Assembly (NCBI GenBank): GCA_012841005.1 | Contig: DUVO01000054.1 | Span: 1 to 18,870, forward strand | Source: Bacillota bacterium | Lineage (GTDB): Bacteria > Bacillota > DTU030 | Length of the DNA: 18,870 nucleotides | Direction of reading: 5' to 3' | Shown: one piece after another, positions 3,109-9,776 of the stretch | How the letters are laid out: the number at the start of each line of letters is the position of its first letter | Numbering within the stretch: position 1 is the first letter of the stretch | Program-made: the position numbers and the translations under genes | Notes under the pieces: model-generated | Told to the model about the DNA's origin: nothing | What the model saw: the letters and a program-made list of their open reading frames with translations, nothing else | Database searches by the model: none

Positions 3109-4470
3109 TTACATGGCCCTGGTCCCGGCCTCGGTCTCAACCAACTGGAGGATCTTTTCCTCATCCCCTGTCACCGCATTGATATAGACCAGATAGGTGT
3201 CCCCGTTTACCTTCCCCCTGACCTCATAGCACAATTTTTCCTCCAGGTTGCTCATGGGGATAACGGCCAGGCGTGTCCTCTGGACCTCCATCTGGCGGGA
3301 AACTTTCTTTTCGGCTTCTTCCGGGGTCAATTCCGGTTCGGGGAGATCCCGCCGGTGGTGGGCCATCAAAAAACCCATGGCATCATAGGCTATTATTTCC
3401 CCGTCGTCTAAGGCAACGGTCACCTTAACGAGATCCGGATAGATAATTATCCCATCCTCCTGGGAGGCAAAGCTGACCGTCAGCCGGCTGCTTTCCTTGA
3501 TGGTGCCGGTAGGCACCATCTTTGCCAAACCCCGCTTGGCCAAAAAGTCTTCTGCCCTGGTTACGGCCTCTGTAAAGGAGATATTATCCTCCCGGGGAAT
3601 ACGGGAATTTAGCATCCAGACCACATGACCGCCCTGCTGGGACACATCAATGGCGATCTGCCCCTTATCCTCCCCCTCCCTGTCTATGGCAATGCTGTAG
3701 GCAGGAATCCGGCCCCGGGTCTTGCCAATCTCCCCAATTTTATAACCCGCTTCCTCCTCAAGATCCAAAAAGTCAAGGGCAATTTCCCGTGCCTCGGATT
3801 CGCTGATCCTTTCCCCGGTAAGCCCCCTGGGTTCTTGCTCTTCTATATGATCGGAGAAGGGACCGTCATAGGTCAGGGTTGGCGCCTGATCCCGCAGCTT
3901 CTCATCGAGCTTGCTGAAACCATCGGCAATACTTTGCGCCCGGGGAGTGAGCTTTTTGTTCCGGCTCAAAGAAGCAAAGGAACGCCACTGGAAACCGTCT
4001 TCTTCGATCCCCGACATAATTTCCCGCAAGCCCGTGTGGATTTCCCTGGTCTGTTCATGGAGCTGGGCCAGTTGCTGCCACTCCTCGGCCTTAATTTCCA
4101 GACCCCGGGCCTGTTTTTCCGCCAGGATATAGCAGTAGTCTCCCAGCTGGGCCAGATACTGCTGGCTGCGCATCATATTAACCATCCCGATGGGCATATT
4201 GCCCAGGTTCGACCGGGCATTTTCCGCCTCGTGCCAGACACTGGTCAGAAACATGATCCTCTGCCCGCTGGAACCGGAGGCCAGGCTCTTGCCCAAGAGG
4301 CTGTTTAAGTTTTCCATATTTTTCATCAGGTCAAAAAAGGCCCGCTGGTAGCTGGCTTCCAGGGCATATTCCGTTGCCCGGGCCCGCCTTTGGGTCTGCC
4401 AAACCCACCACCCGCCGCCGACAAGAAGCAGCAGGGTCAATCCCAGGGCGATAACCTTTCGTAGATCCAC
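3109..4470 (-). CDS. ypeB: germination protein YpeB
   Basis: A 453-residue protein with one N-terminal membrane segment (about 7-24), a helical central region rich in Leu, Gln and Glu, and C-terminal PepSY-like repeats. The repeats are recognisable from the phrases SESEAREIALDFLDLEEEAG, FTEAVTRAEDFLAKRG and LTPEEAEKKVSRQM. This matches YpeB of Bacillus and Clostridia, an inner-spore-membrane protein needed to deposit and stabilise the cortex-lytic enzyme SleB. Its start is 18 nt after the sleB stop, in the conserved sleB-ypeB order. Family role is known; activity here is inferred from similarity and context. I see no disruption. Confidence 0.93.
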   Translation of the reverse strand: MDLRKVIALGLTLLLLVGGGWWVWQTQRRARATEYALEASYQRAFFDLMKNMENLNSLLGKSLASGSSGQRIMFLTSVWHEAENARSNLGNMPIGMVNMMRSQQYLAQLGDYCYILAEKQARGLEIKAEEWQQLAQLHEQTREIHTGLREIMSGIEEDGFQWRSFASLSRNKKLTPRAQSIADGFSKLDEKLRDQAPTLTYDGPFSDHIEEQEPRGLTGERISESEAREIALDFLDLEEEAGYKIGEIGKTRGRIPAYSIAIDREGEDKGQIAIDVSQQGGHVVWMLNSRIPREDNISFTEAVTRAEDFLAKRGLAKMVPTGTIKESSRLTVSFASQEDGIIIYPDLVKVTVALDDGEIIAYDAMGFLMAHHRRDLPEPELTPEEAEKKVSRQMEVQRTRLAVIPMSNLEEKLCYEVRGKVNGDTYLVYINAVTGDEEKILQLVETEAGTRAM

Positions 4471-4488
4471 CTGCCCTACCTCCTTACT

Positions 4489-5016
4489 TTAAAGTCCAAA
4501 AACATGTTCCCCGATACTGGCGATTATACGCCTGGTCCAGATCCAGGGACTGCTGGCAGTACCCGGATTCCAAAAGAAAAGGGAGCCATAGGAGGGATCC
4601 CAGCCGTTGAGGGCCTGCTCGGCAGCCCGGACATGTTCCTCGGTGACCGGAGCGCTCCAAAAAGTCCCGTTCAGCACCGGCTCAAAGGCCCAGGGTTCAA
4701 AGAGAACCCCCGCCACTGTTCCCGGGAACCGGGGATTCCGGACCCGGTTGACAATCACAGCAGCAACGGCCACCTGGCCCTCGTAGGGTTCCCCCCGGGC
4801 TTCCGAAGCCACCATGCGGGCCAAAAGCCAGATATCATCATAATTCGGTTCCCCAGCCTGGGGGGCGTAGGCTGTTTCGGTTTTCCCGTTGCCGTAGGGT
4901 CCTTCCTTCAGGTGGGTATAGACCCCCACAGCAAGAACCACCACTACCAGGGCGGCAGCCAAACCGAGGCGGAGCCGGTGGTCGCCCTTGCTTCCCCGGG
5001 GTTTTTGCTCAACCAT
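4489..5016 (-). CDS. sleB: spore cortex-lytic enzyme SleB-type hydrolase
   Basis: A 175-residue protein with an N-terminal membrane anchor or uncleaved signal (about 17-34) and a cell-wall hydrolase (Hydrolase_2/SleB) domain at about 62-172. The domain begins with ARMVASEARGEPYEG, where Glu72 is the expected catalytic acid. It also contains the conserved Val-Asn-Arg-Val block and the Phe-Trp-Asn-Pro block near 148-151. SleB is a lytic transglycosylase that opens muramic-delta-lactam cortex peptidoglycan during germination. Bacillus SleB carries an extra N-terminal peptidoglycan-binding domain that is absent here. The gene is first in a two-gene operon with ypeB. The ATG has a GGGAGG ribosome binding site. 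Confidence 0.9.
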   Translation of the reverse strand: MVEQKPRGSKGDHRLRLGLAAALVVVVLAVGVYTHLKEGPYGNGKTETAYAPQAGEPNYDDIWLLARMVASEARGEPYEGQVAVAAVIVNRVRNPRFPGTVAGVLFEPWAFEPVLNGTFWSAPVTEEHVRAAEQALNGWDPSYGSLFFWNPGTASSPWIWTRRIIASIGEHVFGL

Positions 5017-5200
5017 TTTTTCAACCTCCCTGTAGATAAAATTGTGATTCTATTGACGCCTTCGGCTCCAGCAATTTGTCCCATCTTAGATTTCCCCGGA
5101 ACATGCTCTTCAATACAAGCATATTTCCCCCTCGATTTAATTACATCTTTACCTCGCCTTGAATATAGTGTATTGAGGTTCGCGGAAGGGAGGTAACTCG

Positions 5201-6229
5201 ATGGAAAGACTGCGTAGGATCCTCAAGAAGGCAAAAAACCGCCTCTTTCCCCTGCGCAATGTGGTGGGGGTTGGTCTCGGCTACAAGGAAACCGGCCGGG
5301 AGAATACCGGCGAACTCTCGGTGGTTGTCTTTGTTTCCCGAAAAGAGCACCACCGGGACCTGGGGCCTGACGATACCATCCCCCGTACCATAGATGCAGT
5401 ACCTACCGATGTGGTGGAAATCGGGGAGGTTAAATTCCTGGTCGAACGCACGGGAAAGTTGCGGCCGGCCAAACCCGGAATTAGTATTGGACACCAGCAG
5501 ATTACCGCCGGTACCCTCGGCGCCCTGGTCAGGGACAACGATACAGGTGAGGTGCTGATACTTTCCAACAACCACGTCCTGGCCAATTCGACCAACGGCC
5601 ACGACGGGAGGGCAGCCCTTGGGGATATGATCCTCCAACCGGGGCCCTACGATGGGGGGACCCAGGATGATGCCATCGCCGTTCTCCATCGCTTTGTTCC
5701 CATCAACGCTGAACTCCGCTCCCCTGAATGCGCCGTAGCAAAACTGGCCGAAAGGATCGAAAACCGGATATTGCGCGTGGTGCGGCCGGATTATAAGGTA
5801 CAGTTCTTAAAGGCAGAAGCAAAGGGCAACTTGGTAGACTGCGCCGTCGCCAAACCCCTTTCCCCCCGGCTGGTCAGCCCGGAAATTGTGGAAATCGGTT
5901 ACGTCAATGGTGTGGAAACAATGAAGCCGGGCCTGAAGGTCCAGAAAAGCGCGCGTACTACAGGCCTTACCCGGGGTGAAATCAAAACCATCGCCACCAC
6001 CCTGCGGGTACAAATGGCACCGGATACCTATGCCATATTCACCGACCAGGCGGTGGCCGATTTGCAGAGTGCCGGAGGGGACAGCGGTTCCCTGGTCCTC
6101 GATGAAGAAAACAACGCCGTCGGCCTTCTCTTCGCAGGCTCCGACAAATACACGATAATTAACCAGATAAACTATGTCCTGGACCAGCTGGGGGTCAGCC
6201 TGGTCACGGGAAAGGAGGATGAAAAATGA
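5201..6229 (+). CDS. trypsin-fold serine protease without signal peptide
   Basis: A 342-residue protein with a full chymotrypsin-type triad in order: His125 in SNNHVLAN, Asp213 in NLVDCAVAK, and Ser295 in AGGDSGSLV. The N-terminal 80 residues (with GVGLGYKE near 23-30) form a separate small domain, followed by the protease domain from about 95. The closest idea I have is the family of intracellular trypsin-like proteins related to plant NAL1, found as uncharacterised proteins in Clostridia and Bacilli. There is no signal peptide or TM segment, so it appears cytosolic. The substrate is unknown. AAGGGAGGT lies at good spacing before the ATG. Its stop overlaps the start of the next small gene (ATGA), suggesting translational coupling. 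Confidence 0.82.
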   Translation: MERLRRILKKAKNRLFPLRNVVGVGLGYKETGRENTGELSVVVFVSRKEHHRDLGPDDTIPRTIDAVPTDVVEIGEVKFLVERTGKLRPAKPGISIGHQQITAGTLGALVRDNDTGEVLILSNNHVLANSTNGHDGRAALGDMILQPGPYDGGTQDDAIAVLHRFVPINAELRSPECAVAKLAERIENRILRVVRPDYKVQFLKAEAKGNLVDCAVAKPLSPRLVSPEIVEIGYVNGVETMKPGLKVQKSARTTGLTRGEIKTIATTLRVQMAPDTYAIFTDQAVADLQSAGGDSGSLVLDEENNAVGLLFAGSDKYTIINQINYVLDQLGVSLVTGKEDEK

Positions 6230-6393
6230 CCGAGCGACAAGAATGCCACTCCAAAGTGAACCCCTTTACCTTGTTTCTGATTCTAATCCTGCTGCTGGCC
6301 TCCACCGGTACCCTGGCCGTCCTCGTGGATGCCCTTCGCTCCCTTGTAACAATGCCCTCTCTGGAGACATACCATAGCAAAGAAGAAGGTTAA
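6226..6393 (+). CDS. small single-pass membrane protein, unrecognised (55 aa)
   Basis: The ATG at 6226 overlaps the protease stop by 4 nt and is preceded by AAAGGAGG (6211-6218) at normal spacing. The protein has a polar N-terminus (MTERQECHSK), one strong hydrophobic segment at about 14-37 containing FLILILLLAS, and a short acidic tail ending KEEG. I do not recognise it. The overlap with the protease gene and the strong ribosome binding site support real translation. It could anchor, inhibit or be a substrate of the protease, but this is speculation. It ends about 105 nt before the next gene. Confidence 0.65.
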   Translation: MTERQECHSKVNPFTLFLILILLLASTGTLAVLVDALRSLVTMPSLETYHSKEEG

Positions 6394-6498: not shown

Positions 6499-6825
6499 GT
6501 GCCAATGACCCAATTAGAAGCCAAGGATATAACCTTTTTCCTCGCCGTCAAGCCTTATATGAGTACAAAAGCGCAACGGCTGCTGGATATAATCCTGCTC
6601 CTCAGTAATCCCGGTATCCAGTCCCCGGGGGATTCCCTGGATCCGGTTCCCATCCTCACCTTACTGAACCTGGCGAAGAACATGGCCTCCTCTCCTTCCC
6701 CTCACCTCCCCGAACCGGAACTACCCCAGGGGCTGGAGCTGGTGGAGCCGGTAGAAGGGGAGGAAGAAGGGGCAGGGGAGAAGGAAGAGCAAGGAGGGGA
6801 AGCAAATGAACCGGATACCCCTTGA
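6499..6825 (+). CDS. small paralogue A of a tandem family (108 aa), unrecognised
   Basis: The GTG at 6499 lies 8 nt after GGGAGG and is preferred over the ATG at 6505 (14 nt spacing). Residues 5-35 carry the shared module DITFFLAVKPYMSTKAQRLL. A second module, a Pro-containing turn then a Leu-rich helix (LDPVPILTLLNLAKNM), is at about 47-62. The C-terminal 40 residues are a Pro/Glu/Gly-rich acidic tail that the two following paralogues lack. There is no TM segment, signal or known domain. It is the first of three tandem related genes and its end overlaps the next start by 20 nt, so they are almost certainly co-transcribed. Function unknown. Confidence 0.75.
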   Translation: MPMTQLEAKDITFFLAVKPYMSTKAQRLLDIILLLSNPGIQSPGDSLDPVPILTLLNLAKNMASSPSPHLPEPELPQGLELVEPVEGEEEGAGEKEEQGGEANEPDTP

Positions 6826-7024
6826 ACCAAGGGACATCTCCGTCCTGGAAGCCCTCAAACCTTTCCTGAGCCCCAGGGGGCAAGGGCTTGTGGATATAAT
6901 GACTAACTTTGTCCGTGTTTTCAATACCGGGCAAGAAGAAAGCTTTGACCCGGAGGCTTTAGTAAACCTGGTAAGGATCCTGCGCCAGGAAAGGATTGTC
7001 CAAAGGGATGCCCGCCCAAGCTGA
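6806..7024 (+). CDS. small paralogue B of the tandem family (72 aa), unrecognised
   Basis: The ATG is preceded by AAGGAGGGG within the end of paralogue A. The protein keeps both modules of the family: DISVLEALKPFLSPRGQGL at about 10-28, then FDPEALVNLVRILRQE at about 47-62. It lacks the acidic tail of A and ends with a short basic segment. It looks like two amphipathic helices with no membrane segment. It aligns without large gaps to A (6499) and C (7041) in residues 5-30, so the three arose by tandem duplication. Function unknown. Confidence 0.78.
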   Translation: MNRIPLEPRDISVLEALKPFLSPRGQGLVDIMTNFVRVFNTGQEESFDPEALVNLVRILRQERIVQRDARPS

Positions 7025-7040
7025 TAAAGGAGGAGAGATT

Positions 7041-7241
7041 ATGAACAACGTCCCCTTTGATTCCAAAGATCTTTCCCTAATCCTCGCCATTAAGCCCTTT
7101 CTTACCCCCCAGGGTCAGAAAACCATTGACGGCTTTATCAGCATCCTGGAAGTTCTGGGACGCCCGGCAGAAGCCAGCAGAAAGGAAAAACCCGACACCC
7201 AGGCGGTAGCCAGTCTCATCCGGTTGTTGAGTGAAGAATAA
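7041..7241 (+). CDS. small paralogue C of the tandem family (66 aa), unrecognised
   Basis: Start chosen at the ATG 7041, which has AAAGGAGGAG at ideal spacing. Upstream in-frame starts overlap gene B and have no ribosome binding site. The first module is DLSLILAIKPFLTPQGQKTI (about 9-28). The second is shorter and reads PDTQAVASLIRLLSEE at the C-terminus. It is 16 nt after paralogue B and is followed after about 40 nt by an intrinsic terminator, so it closes this three-gene unit. No known domain. Confidence 0.78.
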   Translation: MNNVPFDSKDLSLILAIKPFLTPQGQKTIDGFISILEVLGRPAEASRKEKPDTQAVASLIRLLSEE

Positions 7242-7282
7242 ACTACGGGTTAACGGCCGGGGCCACCATAACAGGCGAGGAC

Positions 7283-7321
7283 AAAAAACCCCTGTTTCCG
7301 GTATGGAACAGGGTTTTTTTC
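7283..7321 (+). terminator. intrinsic terminator after the three-paralogue unit
   Basis: CCCTGTTTCC pairs with GGAACAGGG (one bulged T, 5-nt loop), preceded by AAAAAA and followed by TTTTTTT. It lies between paralogue C and the YbaB-like gene. Either the downstream genes have their own promoter, which I could not identify in the 57-nt gap, or partial read-through occurs. Confidence 0.88.
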
Positions 7322-7377
7322 ACTCCCAGGCAAGTATCTTGGGTCAGGTGAATATAGTAAACCGAGGAGGTGTTAAA

Positions 7378-7680
7378 ATGGACAATTTTATGGAAAGACT
7401 CCGTTCCGAGTTGGAACTTATCCAAACCGGTTTAAAGGAAAAAACAGTTGAAGCCACTGCCGCCGACGGTTTGGTAAAGGTTACAGCCAACGGCCACCAG
7501 GAGTTAACAGCCGTTTTTCTTGACCCCCTGGCCCTTTATCCGAAGAACCAGGCTCCCCTGGAAGAGGCAGTATTGGAAGCCGTCAATGAAGCCATCCACC
7601 TTTCCCGGCAACTCTTGCGGGAGGAGATTTCCCGCCTGGCCGGTGGTATAAACCAGGCCGAGTTCCCCGATTTTTTCTAA
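7378..7680 (+). CDS. YbaB/EbfC-family nucleoid-associated protein
   Basis: A 100-residue protein with the YbaB/EbfC layout: an N-terminal helix (about 1-22); a central sheet with the block KTVEATAADGLVKVTANG (about 22-39), matching the family's KTVEGSAGGGAVKV-like pattern; DPLAL near 51; and a long C-terminal helix (about 59-88) ending in a Gly-Gly and a Phe-rich tail. YbaB dimers bind DNA and act as nucleoid proteins or regulators. It is not next to dnaX-recR, where the canonical ybaB sits, so it is likely a second, divergent copy. GAGGAGGTG precedes the ATG. Its neighbours on both sides are small unknown proteins. Confidence 0.85.
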   Translation: MDNFMERLRSELELIQTGLKEKTVEATAADGLVKVTANGHQELTAVFLDPLALYPKNQAPLEEAVLEAVNEAIHLSRQLLREEISRLAGGINQAEFPDFF

Positions 7681-7721
7681 GTCCCGGGGGAGAATTCTCC
7701 CGCCGAAAGGATGTGGTACAT

Positions 7722-8180
7722 GTGGCCGAGCAACAGGGAAGTCCTTCTCCCGACCGGCCTGAATTTATGGATGCGGTGGTACACCTTTTACACCGTCAGG
7801 GGGAAAAGCTCAACCCCGCCGAGCTCCTTGGTTTCTTAAGCCTCTTTAATCTCCTGGGAATTGTGAGTTTCTTAAACAAGGGGGGGAACAGTACCCCTCG
7901 GGGTTTGGAGGCCTTTTCCACCCTGGCCCAGGATTTGGCAAAGAAAGAGACCGGGGGCAGCAGCGCTGCGGGCTCCCAGTCCTTGCTCCATAACCTCATG
8001 GCTCTGCTGGAGTCCAAAGGGGGGCAAAAGCTGAATCCCGCCAGCTTATTAGCCCTGGTCAACCTGCTGGGCGAAACAGGCACGAAGGAAAAGGAACCGG
8101 AACCACCGGAGCAGGAGCCGAAAGGGGAGCAACCCCCGGCCAGCCAGGAGCAAAGTCTCAGGGAAGAAAAAAGTGAGTAA
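7722..8180 (+). CDS. 152-aa protein with internal repeat, unrecognised
   Basis: The GTG at 7722 is 10 nt after AAAGGA. A GTG at 7713 is too close to that site, and the start could also be an ATG about 16 codons further in. Two copies of a helix motif occur: GEKLNPAELLGFLSLFNLLG, and about 75 residues later GQKLNPASLLALVNLLGE. Between them is STPRGLEAFSTLAQDL, which loosely resembles the KPF-x-SP-x-GQ module of the small paralogues. The C-terminal 40 residues are Glu/Pro/Gln-rich, like the tail of paralogue A. It is 41 nt after the YbaB-like gene and probably shares its transcript. No known domain; likely soluble and helical. Confidence 0.75.
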   Translation: MAEQQGSPSPDRPEFMDAVVHLLHRQGEKLNPAELLGFLSLFNLLGIVSFLNKGGNSTPRGLEAFSTLAQDLAKKETGGSSAAGSQSLLHNLMALLESKGGQKLNPASLLALVNLLGETGTKEKEPEPPEQEPKGEQPPASQEQSLREEKSE

Positions 8181-8262: not shown

Positions 8263-8349
8263 TTAGAACCAATCGCCCAAAAGAAGCAGGATCAGGATCA
8301 GGAACACCAGAAAGGTTTTGTTATTCCCACCAGTAGTAATATCGGCCAT
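8263..8349 (-). CDS. 28-aa hydrophobic peptide, YjcZ-like, probable sporulation protein
   Basis: The ATG at 8349 is preceded by AAAGGGGG at good spacing. An upstream in-frame extension has no ribosome binding site and crosses the promoter. The peptide has a short Gly/Asn-rich start (MADITTGGNNK), a single hydrophobic segment of about 13 residues (FLVFLILILLLL), and ends GDWF. Size and layout resemble the YjcZ/YfjT-type tiny sporulation proteins of Bacillus, although sequence identity cannot be claimed. A promoter matching the sigma-K consensus lies about 60 nt upstream, which supports mother-cell, late-sporulation expression. Confidence 0.7.
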   Translation of the reverse strand: MADITTGGNNKTFLVFLILILLLLGDWF

Positions 8350-8408: not shown

Positions 8409-8437
8409 TATAGTATGCGAGTTCTGGTAAAGGTGTT
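8409..8437 (-). promoter_or_regulatory. candidate sigma-K promoter of the 28-aa peptide gene
   Basis: On the minus strand AACA (8437-8434), a 16-nt spacer, then CATACTATA (8417-8409). This fits the Bacillus sigma-K consensus mACm-N16-CATAnnnTA at every fixed position. The -10 also resembles sigma-E (CATACAnT), but the sigma-E -35 is missing. Confidence 0.65.
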
Positions 8438-8507: not shown

Positions 8508-8551
8508 GAAAAAAACAGAAAAACCTGCTGCCCAAAAAGGAGGTGAAGCTG

Positions 8552-8911
8552 TTGTATTGGCGAATGCCTCCGGGATACCCCCACCCCTTACCCAGGGAGC
8601 CCTGGTTTTTTAGCCCTCCCTGGCCCTACCGGTGGCGAAAACCCAGGGCCAAAAAGGAAGAATTCCCGGTTCAATTTGAACATAATGGGGCTTCCAACGC
8701 CCCGAAGGAAGCCCCTGCACCTATAGATCCTTGCGAAGAAAAAACGACACAGAAAAGCGATCCGGCTGCAGGCTCCCCCAGCCAAAACCCGGACCCTGCC
8801 CCTCCGGCAGGTCGGAAACCTGTCCCGGTGCCAGAAGACGAAGGAAAGAGGGAAAATACCGGCGCCAGGGAACCTTCCGCCGGACCCTTGAAATGGCATT
8901 TTCCTCGATGA
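8552..8911 (+). CDS. 119-aa Pro-rich protein, probable spore coat component
   Basis: Start chosen at TTG 8552, 8 nt after AAGGAGG (8537-8543). A GTG at 8543 overlaps that site and the ATG at 8564 is too far away. The first 33 residues are rich in Trp, Tyr and Pro (YWRMPPGYPHPLPREPWFF and then SPPWPYRWRKP). The rest is low-complexity Pro/Glu/Lys/Ala and presumably disordered. No signal, TM or catalytic motif. Its position behind a sigma-K-like promoter, and the aromatic/Pro composition shared with the next genes, suggest a spore coat or crust protein; that is an inference. The next gene starts 30 nt later. Confidence 0.65.
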   Translation: MYWRMPPGYPHPLPREPWFFSPPWPYRWRKPRAKKEEFPVQFEHNGASNAPKEAPAPIDPCEEKTTQKSDPAAGSPSQNPDPAPPAGRKPVPVPEDEGKRENTGAREPSAGPLKWHFPR

Positions 8912-8941
8912 ACCTGTGCCCTCTACCAGGAGGTGATGAAA

Positions 8942-9343
8942 ATGGTGGCAGATTGGAAAATTTGGCCTACAGCTTCCTCCTACCAGTTCCTCTATAACAA
9001 TCCCTTTTCCCAACGGGTCCTGCCTGGCTGGTATCAGGGCGCCACCCTTTTTGCCCTGGACCTGGGTGAGTTTTCCCTCGATCCGGAAACAGTCGGTGCC
9101 GCCCCCCTCTATATTCCCGTAACAGGCTTTGACCCGGAGGGTACCCCCCTTCCCGTTGAAGGCCAATTCTATATTTTCAGTAAAGTGCCATCAAGTCGAG
9201 GTTATACGGGATTCTGCCGGGTTACCTTTGTGGAAGTTCCCCCCGGCTATCGCCCCAATACTCTCCGCTCCCAGGCCGATGCCCGGGCAGCGGGCTTCAA
9301 CCTCCTCCCTTCGGATCTGGTCCTCCTCCTCCCCATCCTCTAG
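8942..9343 (+). CDS. 133-aa aromatic-rich protein, unrecognised, probable sporulation cluster member
   Basis: ATG 8942 is 8 nt after AGGAGG (8928-8933). Nearer ATG/GTG codons overlap that site. The protein is dense in aromatics and Pro at its start (MVADWKIWPTASSYQFLYNN). It has a middle stretch of likely beta strands (ATLFALDLGEFSLDPET, QFYIFSKVPSSRGYTGF) and a hydrophobic C-terminus (LVLLLPIL). One Cys, no signal peptide, no family I recognise. It lies 30 nt after the Pro-rich gene and before the Trp-rich gene, so it probably shares the sigma-K transcript starting near 8515. Confidence 0.68.
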   Translation: MVADWKIWPTASSYQFLYNNPFSQRVLPGWYQGATLFALDLGEFSLDPETVGAAPLYIPVTGFDPEGTPLPVEGQFYIFSKVPSSRGYTGFCRVTFVEVPPGYRPNTLRSQADARAAGFNLLPSDLVLLLPIL

Positions 9344-9391
9344 GGAATTATTTTCAGCAAGGCATTCTTTTCTGCCCATCTGTATGGGCTG

Positions 9392-9420
9392 AACCCTTTC
9401 CCAGTCGACAACATAATATA
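9392..9420 (+). promoter_or_regulatory. candidate sigma-K promoter of the Trp-rich repeat gene
   Basis: AACC (9392-9395), a 16-nt spacer, then CATAATATA (9412-9420) matches mACm-N16-CATAnnnTA at every fixed position. It lies about 40 nt before the start codon of the Trp-rich protein. Confidence 0.65.
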
Positions 9421-9461
9421 AAGGGAAATGGAGTTGCAGTTTGGGAAAGGAGGAAGAGACC

Positions 9462-9776
9462 ATGGCCGATTTTGATAGCACACCCTCCCCATGGGACCGC
9501 TGCCCCCCTCCCTGGGGTGGGGAACAGCCCTGGGGCAATTGGCCTCCTTGGGACGGCGGATCTCCCTGGGGTGGGGAACAGCCCTGGGGCGGTTCTCCCT
9601 GGGGTTGCCCTCCCCCCTGGGGTACCTGCCCTCCCTGGAATTGGTGTCCCCCTATGGATCCCCGCTGGATGATGTGCGAACAATTCTCCATGATCCGGGA
9701 GATGTATTCACTGGTGCAGGATATGCATGAAATGATGACAGAGAGGCACCGCCAGCCATGCTCCCGGGCTGAATAA
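9462..9776 (+). CDS. 104-aa Trp/Pro/Gly/Cys-rich repeat protein, probable spore coat
   Basis: ATG 9462 is 8 nt after AAAGGAGG (9447-9453). Residues 9-63 are made of short PW-G units such as PPPWGGEQPWGN, SPWGGEQPWGG and CPPPWGTCPPWNWCPP. The whole protein has 12 Trp and 6 Cys in 104 residues, which is exceptional. Residues 66-96 form a Met-rich helix (MDPRWMMCEQFSMIREM). There is no signal peptide. A sigma-K-type promoter and the neighbouring genes point to a late mother-cell product, perhaps a Cys cross-linked coat protein; this is inference. A strong terminator follows at once. Confidence 0.78.
   Translation: MADFDSTPSPWDRCPPPWGGEQPWGNWPPWDGGSPWGGEQPWGGSPWGCPPPWGTCPPWNWCPPMDPRWMMCEQFSMIREMYSLVQDMHEMMTERHRQPCSRAE
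9509..9590 (+). repeat. 28-bp direct repeat inside the Trp-rich gene
   Basis: An identical 28-base sequence occurs at 9509-9536 and 9563-9590, 54 bp apart start to start. It encodes PWGGEQPWG in the same frame. Exact identity at the DNA level suggests recent duplication or gene conversion within the coding region. Confidence 0.9.

Follow-up and report, generated by a model that had tools for sequence, protein, structure and literature searches.

A conserved, undescribed gene module of small proteins and a YbaB paralogue in Bacillota, with a probable role in the spore outer layers

What do three tiny tandem genes do beside a divergent member of the nucleoid protein family YbaB/EbfC? The question is raised by contig DUVO01000054.1 (GenBank assembly GCA_012841005.1) of a Bacillota bacterium from the lineage DTU030, of which the first 18,870 nucleotides were analyzed and are called the window here. 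The three genes (A, B and C) form one family, named KPFL in this work, and the YbaB-like gene is followed by a protein of 155 amino acids (aa), whose family is named LNPA. A sequence-only reading had proposed these genes as a candidate undescribed system for chromatin packing, the spore nucleoid or an assembly. Our comparison of genomes suggests that the region is a conserved, undescribed late mother-cell sporulation module, probably located in the outer layers of the spore (the coat basement or the outer forespore membrane). The genes in question are the following.

6499..6825, + strand: KPFL-family protein A, 108 aa, with a GTG start kept in two congeners
6806..7024, + strand: KPFL-family protein B, 72 aa, whose first 20 bases overlap the end of A
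7041..7241, + strand: KPFL-family protein C, 66 aa, beginning 16 bases past B
7290..7313, + strand: intrinsic terminator-like hairpin with a T tract, the repeat being conserved in two congeners
7378..7680, + strand: divergent YbaB/EbfC-family protein, 100 aa, the module-specific copy
7713..8180, + strand: LNPA-family protein, 155 aa from a GTG start, with two LNPA-x-LL motifs

The open reading frames (ORFs) are all in place. A, B and C fit letter for letter the sequence pattern that had been read as a mark of three tandem small paralogues, and the divergent YbaB (PF02575, 6e-20) and the protein with two LNPA-x-LL motifs (LNPAELL and LNPASLL) were found where they had been described. The hairpin at 7290–7313 stands between A-B-C and YbaB-LNPA. 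Against two congeners, the ratio of nonsynonymous to synonymous substitution rates was 0.27–0.39 for A, 0.13–0.18 for B, 0.08–0.19 for C, 0.13–0.17 for YbaB and 0.25–0.41 for LNPA, so all five look like coding genes under purifying selection. The ratio for a 55-aa membrane-segment protein encoded upstream of A was 0.35–0.66.

When the genome itself was searched with C, the only further places with E ≤ 10 were B (E = 2.4e-8) and A (E = 0.0175), which indicates that the three genes are paralogues. The link from B to A had E = 2e-4 in a search among the ORFs of 21 loci. Profile A2 (28 rows) includes A, B and C of the window, and its retrieving all three is no independent test of homology. Three KPFL ORFs per locus were found in just 4 of 97 loci, so the tandem array is a lineage-specific local elaboration. 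In family f2, an A-like and a C-like domain are fused in one ORF, which is 184–195 aa long in six of seven genomes; in the seventh genome, the ORF has 267 aa and its start is uncertain. The predicted model of C consists of three helices (residues 8–20, 23–39 and 53–65) at low confidence (predicted local distance difference test, pLDDT, 62). In 29 of 96 KPFL genomes, the KPFL ORF contains a hydrophobic segment, as counted directly by hydrophobicity, and a free membrane-segment ORF stands immediately upstream of 24 of 110 KPFL ORFs.

Both families are widespread in the phylum. KPFL was detected in 93 of 348 phylum genomes with profile A2 (E ≤ 0.01), and LNPA in 76 of 348 at the same threshold with profile A3 (15 rows, including the protein of the window). 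In public protein collections, 6 proteins were found for C (the window's own among them), 31 for KPFL and at least 102 for LNPA when the best 8000 candidates were scored. Almost all public copies carry the source name 'hypothetical protein'; the exceptions are LNPA proteins, two named 'L-arabinose isomerase' and one 'uncharacterized protein YjgD' by jgi, and one 'conserved protein of unknown function'. No Pfam or NCBIfam family was found for 46 KPFL and 44 LNPA members: each listed model matched a single member with E 0.001 or worse, the stage III sporulation proteins AF (E 0.002) and AG (0.014) being among them. The literature search found no description of the module, with subscription journals mostly outside its coverage. 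KPFL and LNPA are two undescribed families as far as these searches reach, and in this respect the proposal of an undescribed system was borne out. A viral origin was tried with one LNPA protein and rejected, the viral contigs giving 9 pattern matches and 0 relatives.

SpoIVA was found in 293 of the 348 genomes, namely in 89 of the 93 KPFL genomes versus 204 of the 255 others (Fisher p = 1.9e-4). This association, though real, is mild, since SpoIVA is carried by most genomes in the phylum. The four KPFL genomes without SpoIVA (G130, G241, G287 and G334) are drafts of 61–90% completeness, and KPFL was restricted to spore formers in this comparison. The module very likely belongs to sporulation. 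Its neighbors in the window were the second source of information.

3109..4470, − strand: germination protein YpeB (TIGR02889 over cut-off)
4489..5016, − strand: SleB-type cortex-lytic hydrolase (PF07486; TIGR02869 E = 4e-53, under its cut-off)
5201..6229, + strand: trypsin-like protease, called PROT here (Trypsin_2 E = 1e-4, under the model cut-off)
6226..6393, + strand: small protein of 55 aa with the hydrophobic segment NPFTLFLILILLLA

The sleB-ypeB pair (3109–5016) is divergent from PROT and the module genes. To follow these neighbors across genomes, at least the best KPFL and the best LNPA locus of each matched genome were fetched, leaving out six secondary KPFL matches on other contigs (G049, G093, G127, G140, G217 and G241). 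An iterated profile added three KPFL genomes, which gave 96 genomes in 30 families. Within 5 kb of KPFL, LNPA was present in 58 genomes (18 families), YbaB in 34 (11 families), SleB and YpeB in 42 each (10 families each) and PROT in 46 (13 families). Around LNPA (80 genomes, 26 families), YbaB was nearby in 49 genomes (18 families) and SleB in 40 (10 families), and the fetched stretches of 51 of the 80 genomes held YabG (4), a SipL-type protein (16), SleB (40) or YpeB (40). Since short contigs truncate some loci, these counts are lower bounds. In most listed YbaB loci, YbaB immediately precedes LNPA on the same strand; the order is reversed in f65 and f74, and two f74 genomes (L201 and L203) have two tandem YbaB copies after LNPA.

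A second set was anchored on PROT in named genomes and consists of the best 80 of at least 553 PROT relatives. PROT was picked because it is a neighbor, so this set is no unbiased sample, and the useful contrast is between loci with and without LNPA inside it. LNPA was found in 40 of the 80 loci, YbaB in 29, KPFL in 19 and SleB in 15. YbaB was present in 28 of 40 loci with LNPA versus 1 of 40 without, and SleB in 11 of 40 versus 3 of 40, one further SleB having been relabelled as LysM/SipL-type. These results indicate that YbaB goes with LNPA. PROT itself is widespread, 47 of the 80 loci also holding YabG, with or without LNPA. The residues SNNH and GDSG are invariant in 18 aligned PROT relatives, and PROT may be an unrecognised spore protease.

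Among the named genomes, the module was also seen beside known coat genes. The order in Desulfofundulus thermosubterraneus (L265) is YabG (PF05582 5e-119, and TIGR02855), PROT, YkwD (TIGR02909), a SipL/SPOCS-LysM protein, YbaB, LNPA and a second LNPA; by Pfam, the SipL-type protein has three SipL/SPOCS stretches and one LysM. In Desulforamulus aeronauticus (L248), YabG and SipL-LysM were confirmed by Pfam, and LNPA precedes two YbaB genes. Matches to SafA-type LysM proteins fall under the model cut-off. These and other genera are Desulfotomaculum relatives. LNPA-YbaB thus shares its place with the coat genes of a yabG – protease – ykwD – SipL/LysM cluster in that group, although neither KPFL nor LNPA matches a Pfam or NCBIfam coat family. 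PMC10681294 describes YabG as a coat protease that belongs to the sporulation signature and is controlled by the mother cell. The spore study of Moorella thermoacetica (PMC8745062) lists YpeB (moth_0201) and three SleB entries including moth_0202, and its covered parts name no further gene adjoining these two.

The YbaB of the module is a true member of its family but differs from the canonical copy. It passes the curated cut-offs of both PF02575 (71.6 bits versus 25.5) and TIGR00103 (51.1 versus 49.45). Copies were counted in 31 genomes, 27 with a module YbaB and 4 without. The four genomes whose module has no YbaB hold one YbaB gene each (115–126 bits), and 23 of the 27 others hold two or three, with canonical copies at 113–132 bits and module copies at 46–93 bits. 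Only the module YbaB was found in G000, G002, G009 and G010, all four of which are drafts. In a midpoint-rooted tree of 80 sequences, which omits one short fragment in L038, the 27 canonical copies formed one clade (91/95) and the 53 module copies fell outside it. The first 40 residues contain on average 2.1 methionines in module YbaB versus 6.2 in canonical YbaB, with starts that were not curated. The covered main text of a sporulation-gene survey (PMC3533761) does not mention YbaB.

The promoters provide information on where and when the module is made. The Bacillus subtilis consensus of sigma-K (KCACM / GCATANNNTA) and sigma-G (GNATA / CAWAMTA), as given in a table of PMC3416734, was applied to the 150 bases upstream of operon-first genes, with spacings, and the first G of the −10, kept loose; a looser sigma-K pattern is called AC-type. 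In the phylum loci, the strict sigma-K pattern was found before 11 of 68 KPFL genes (expected 0.00), 6 of 43 PROT genes (0.03), 2 of 5 YabG genes (0.03), 2 of 29 YbaB genes (0.03) and 1 of 27 LNPA genes (0.00), and before none of 33 SleB, 9 SerS and 12 patatin genes. The sigma-G pattern preceded 12 of 33 sleB genes (expected 0.03) versus 0 of 68 KPFL genes. Because of the relatedness among the rows, these counts are not independent events; the KPFL sigma-K sites come from several families. The membrane-segment set contains both module genes and free-standing mini ORFs, and fusions of KPFL with such segments had entered its profile. For this reason, the promoter claim is based on KPFL, PROT and SleB, and the fusions were recounted by hydrophobicity. 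A mechanical sigma-70 consensus scan gave nothing informative for promoter typing. These results make it likely that the module is made in the mother cell and late in sporulation, the sigma-K-type promoters before KPFL being a feature shared with the coat clusters.

The window holds four exact AC-N17-CATANNNTA sites, where 0.21 are expected and 0 of 200 shuffles reach four. Their spacer of 17 is the spacing mode among the loci. The site before A and two elements upstream of other genes are listed below.

6349..6376, + strand: sigma-K-type site AC-N17-CATACCATA, with pattern and spacing kept in both congeners
5160..5170, + strand: TGAATATAGTG element upstream of PROT, identical in 10 of 10 f1 and f2 genomes examined
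7349..7358, + strand: TGAATATAGT element upstream of YbaB, identical in one congener and with one inserted base in the other

The first site lies 122 bases before the GTG of A, inside the end of the 55-aa ORF. The element before YbaB is like a sigma-E/K −10, yet off consensus. Two more of the four sites, at 8409–8436 (− strand, before a 28-aa hydrophobic ORF) and at 9393–9420 (before a PWGG-repeat protein), are each kept in one congener; the second congener is unaligned at the former, and only one was compared at the latter. The last, at 6168–6195, is antisense inside PROT and may be due to chance.

We suggest the following mechanism. KPFL, with its own or an adjoining hydrophobic segment, would be anchored at the membrane that surrounds the forespore. 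LNPA would bind KPFL side by side through a common C-terminal (D/N)P-x-x-L-x-x-L helix motif. In a profile-profile comparison, this motif of KPFL aligns with the second LNPA motif (E = 1.4e-4, probability 52%), and the LNPA profile weakly matches the KPFL genes of six f2 genomes at the same motif (E 8e-5 to 3e-3), from which we infer a homotypic helix-helix contact between the two. The module YbaB, usually encoded beside LNPA where it is present, may have been recruited as a co-assembly partner of LNPA rather than as a housekeeping nucleoid protein, and the neighboring trypsin-like protease (and YabG in other lineages) may mature the assembly. A structural role in the coat or the outer membrane is somewhat favored, and the proposal of an assembly module is supported, plausibly one of the spore. 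It is a more speculative idea, which we hold only tentatively, that a YbaB paralogue left DNA packing and became a structural partner of a membrane-anchored KPFL and LNPA helical scaffold; deep-branching anaerobic spore formers would then have a coat-basement system of their own, one not revealed by the Bacillus and C. difficile models.

Several observations weigh against a coat or membrane scaffold made in the mother cell. Homologues scattered away from the YbaB and LNPA genes would have refuted the proposed system; the counts above (LNPA in 58 and YbaB in 34 of 96) did not refute it, but in 29 of 96 KPFL genomes no LNPA, YbaB, SleB, YpeB or PROT lies within 5 kb, a number that includes weak, possibly false matches and f13 genomes with the module split over about 8 kb. 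Several lineages keep KPFL and LNPA without a module YbaB. In the PROT-anchored set, YabG was present in 26 of 40 loci with LNPA versus 21 of 40 without, so the YabG link mainly belongs to PROT, and SipL-type proteins (SPOCS part scored) were present in 22 of 40 versus 15 of 40. The promoter signal was weak in the second set of named loci, where the strict sigma-K pattern was found for 0 of 12 KPFL (1 of 12 AC-type), 1 of 26 LNPA, 0 of 9 YbaB and 1 of 57 PROT genes; in the same loci, SipL-type genes had 6 of 38 strict and 16 of 38 AC-type patterns, YabG had 3 of 45, and sigma-G patterns preceded 2 of 11 SleB genes. Membrane-segment ORFs in the phylum loci had no strict sigma-K pattern in 41 cases, though 20 of 41 had the AC-type (expected 0.47). 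In the window, the 122 bases between site and A exceed the distance in most other listed KPFL loci (30–73 bases), and in the window's clade the elements before PROT and YbaB deviate from the published consensus. Finally, the common C-terminal motif depends on the 52% match, and the structure model of KPFL is the low-confidence one described above.

Among the alternatives, the best surviving one is that KPFL, LNPA and YbaB are accessories of germination, which hold, position or release SleB in the SleB-YpeB system and do not form a coat scaffold. The sleB-ypeB pair is divergent from or close to KPFL in 42 of 96 genomes from 10 families, the window included. However, the linkage is not constant, as no SleB was detected next to the module in loci of f3, f13, f29, f55 and f116 or in those of the Desulfotomaculum relatives. 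The promoters also differ, being of sigma-G type for sleB (12 of 33) versus sigma-K type for KPFL (11 of 68), so the two are probably made in different cells. We consider a germination accessory unlikely.

A module for chromatin or the spore nucleoid, in which YbaB packs DNA together with small helical partners, had been suggested from the sequence, and it agrees with the family membership of YbaB and with the small helical proteins of the low-confidence model. This suggestion did not hold up well. The recognisable KPFL promoters are of the mother-cell sigma-K type, with 0 of 68 of sigma-G type, and the neighbors are YabG, SipL-type proteins, SleB and YpeB, which are coat or cortex genes. A canonical YbaB is also present in 23 of the 27 genomes with a module YbaB, the remaining four being drafts, and the module copy has fewer early methionines on uncurated starts. 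As a known system, YbaB/EbfC is matched in family membership but not in position: the module copy lies outside the canonical clade and is an extra copy in 23 of 27 genomes, and a YbaB stands near LNPA in 49 of 80 LNPA genomes. DNA packing is hardly probable as the function of the module. It is about as improbable that the module YbaB tunes late coat genes on the mother-cell chromosome with KPFL and LNPA as cofactors. YbaB family members can bind DNA and KPFL apparently is in the mother-cell program, but hydrophobic segments occur in KPFL of 29 of 96 genomes and many KPFL-LNPA loci have no YbaB.

Other features of the window accompany the module. Past SleB-YpeB are a patatin gene (PF01734) and serS (named from sequence). 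The patatin-like gene (2038–2991) is a recurrent neighbor, present within 5 kb in 19 of 96 KPFL genomes and seen for instance in L142, L148, L150, L151, L254 and L267, and a T-box leader is found at 1539–1771 (− strand) upstream of serS. Mini ORFs of about 28–45 aa that contain a segment resembling AFxLFLILILLLFGD are another recurrent feature, found next to the module on either strand and often accompanied by AC-N17-CATANNNTA sites; the one in the window lies at 8263–8349 (− strand), with similar ones in L036, L037, L040, L142, L148 and L150. They recall the YjcZ type of small hydrophobic sporulation proteins in being short, with one dominant hydrophobic segment, near spore genes. They differ in that the 28-aa ORF of the window had no NCBIfam or Pfam match and the 55-aa ORF had none over a cut-off. 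The mini ORFs may represent a further undescribed sporulation family. Downstream, three proteins (122 aa and proline-rich, 136 aa, and 111 aa with PWGG repeats) are encoded at 8543–9776 and had matches only in congeners among the compared loci; because the last of them has the sigma-K-type site at 9393–9420, which is kept in a congener, the three may likewise belong to the coat.

What is known of spore-coat assembly comes mainly from Bacillus and Clostridioides difficile. To our knowledge, little has been charted of the coat in Moorella, Desulfotomaculum, Thermincola, Tepidanaerobacter and related bacteria. Some of these produce spores of very high heat resistance, according to PMC8745062. KPFL, LNPA and the specialised YbaB are strongly linked to sleB-ypeB, and in certain lineages yabG and sipL-type genes are linked to them as well; they offer concrete targets in the spore envelope, and the module would show a nucleoid-protein fold in a new context.

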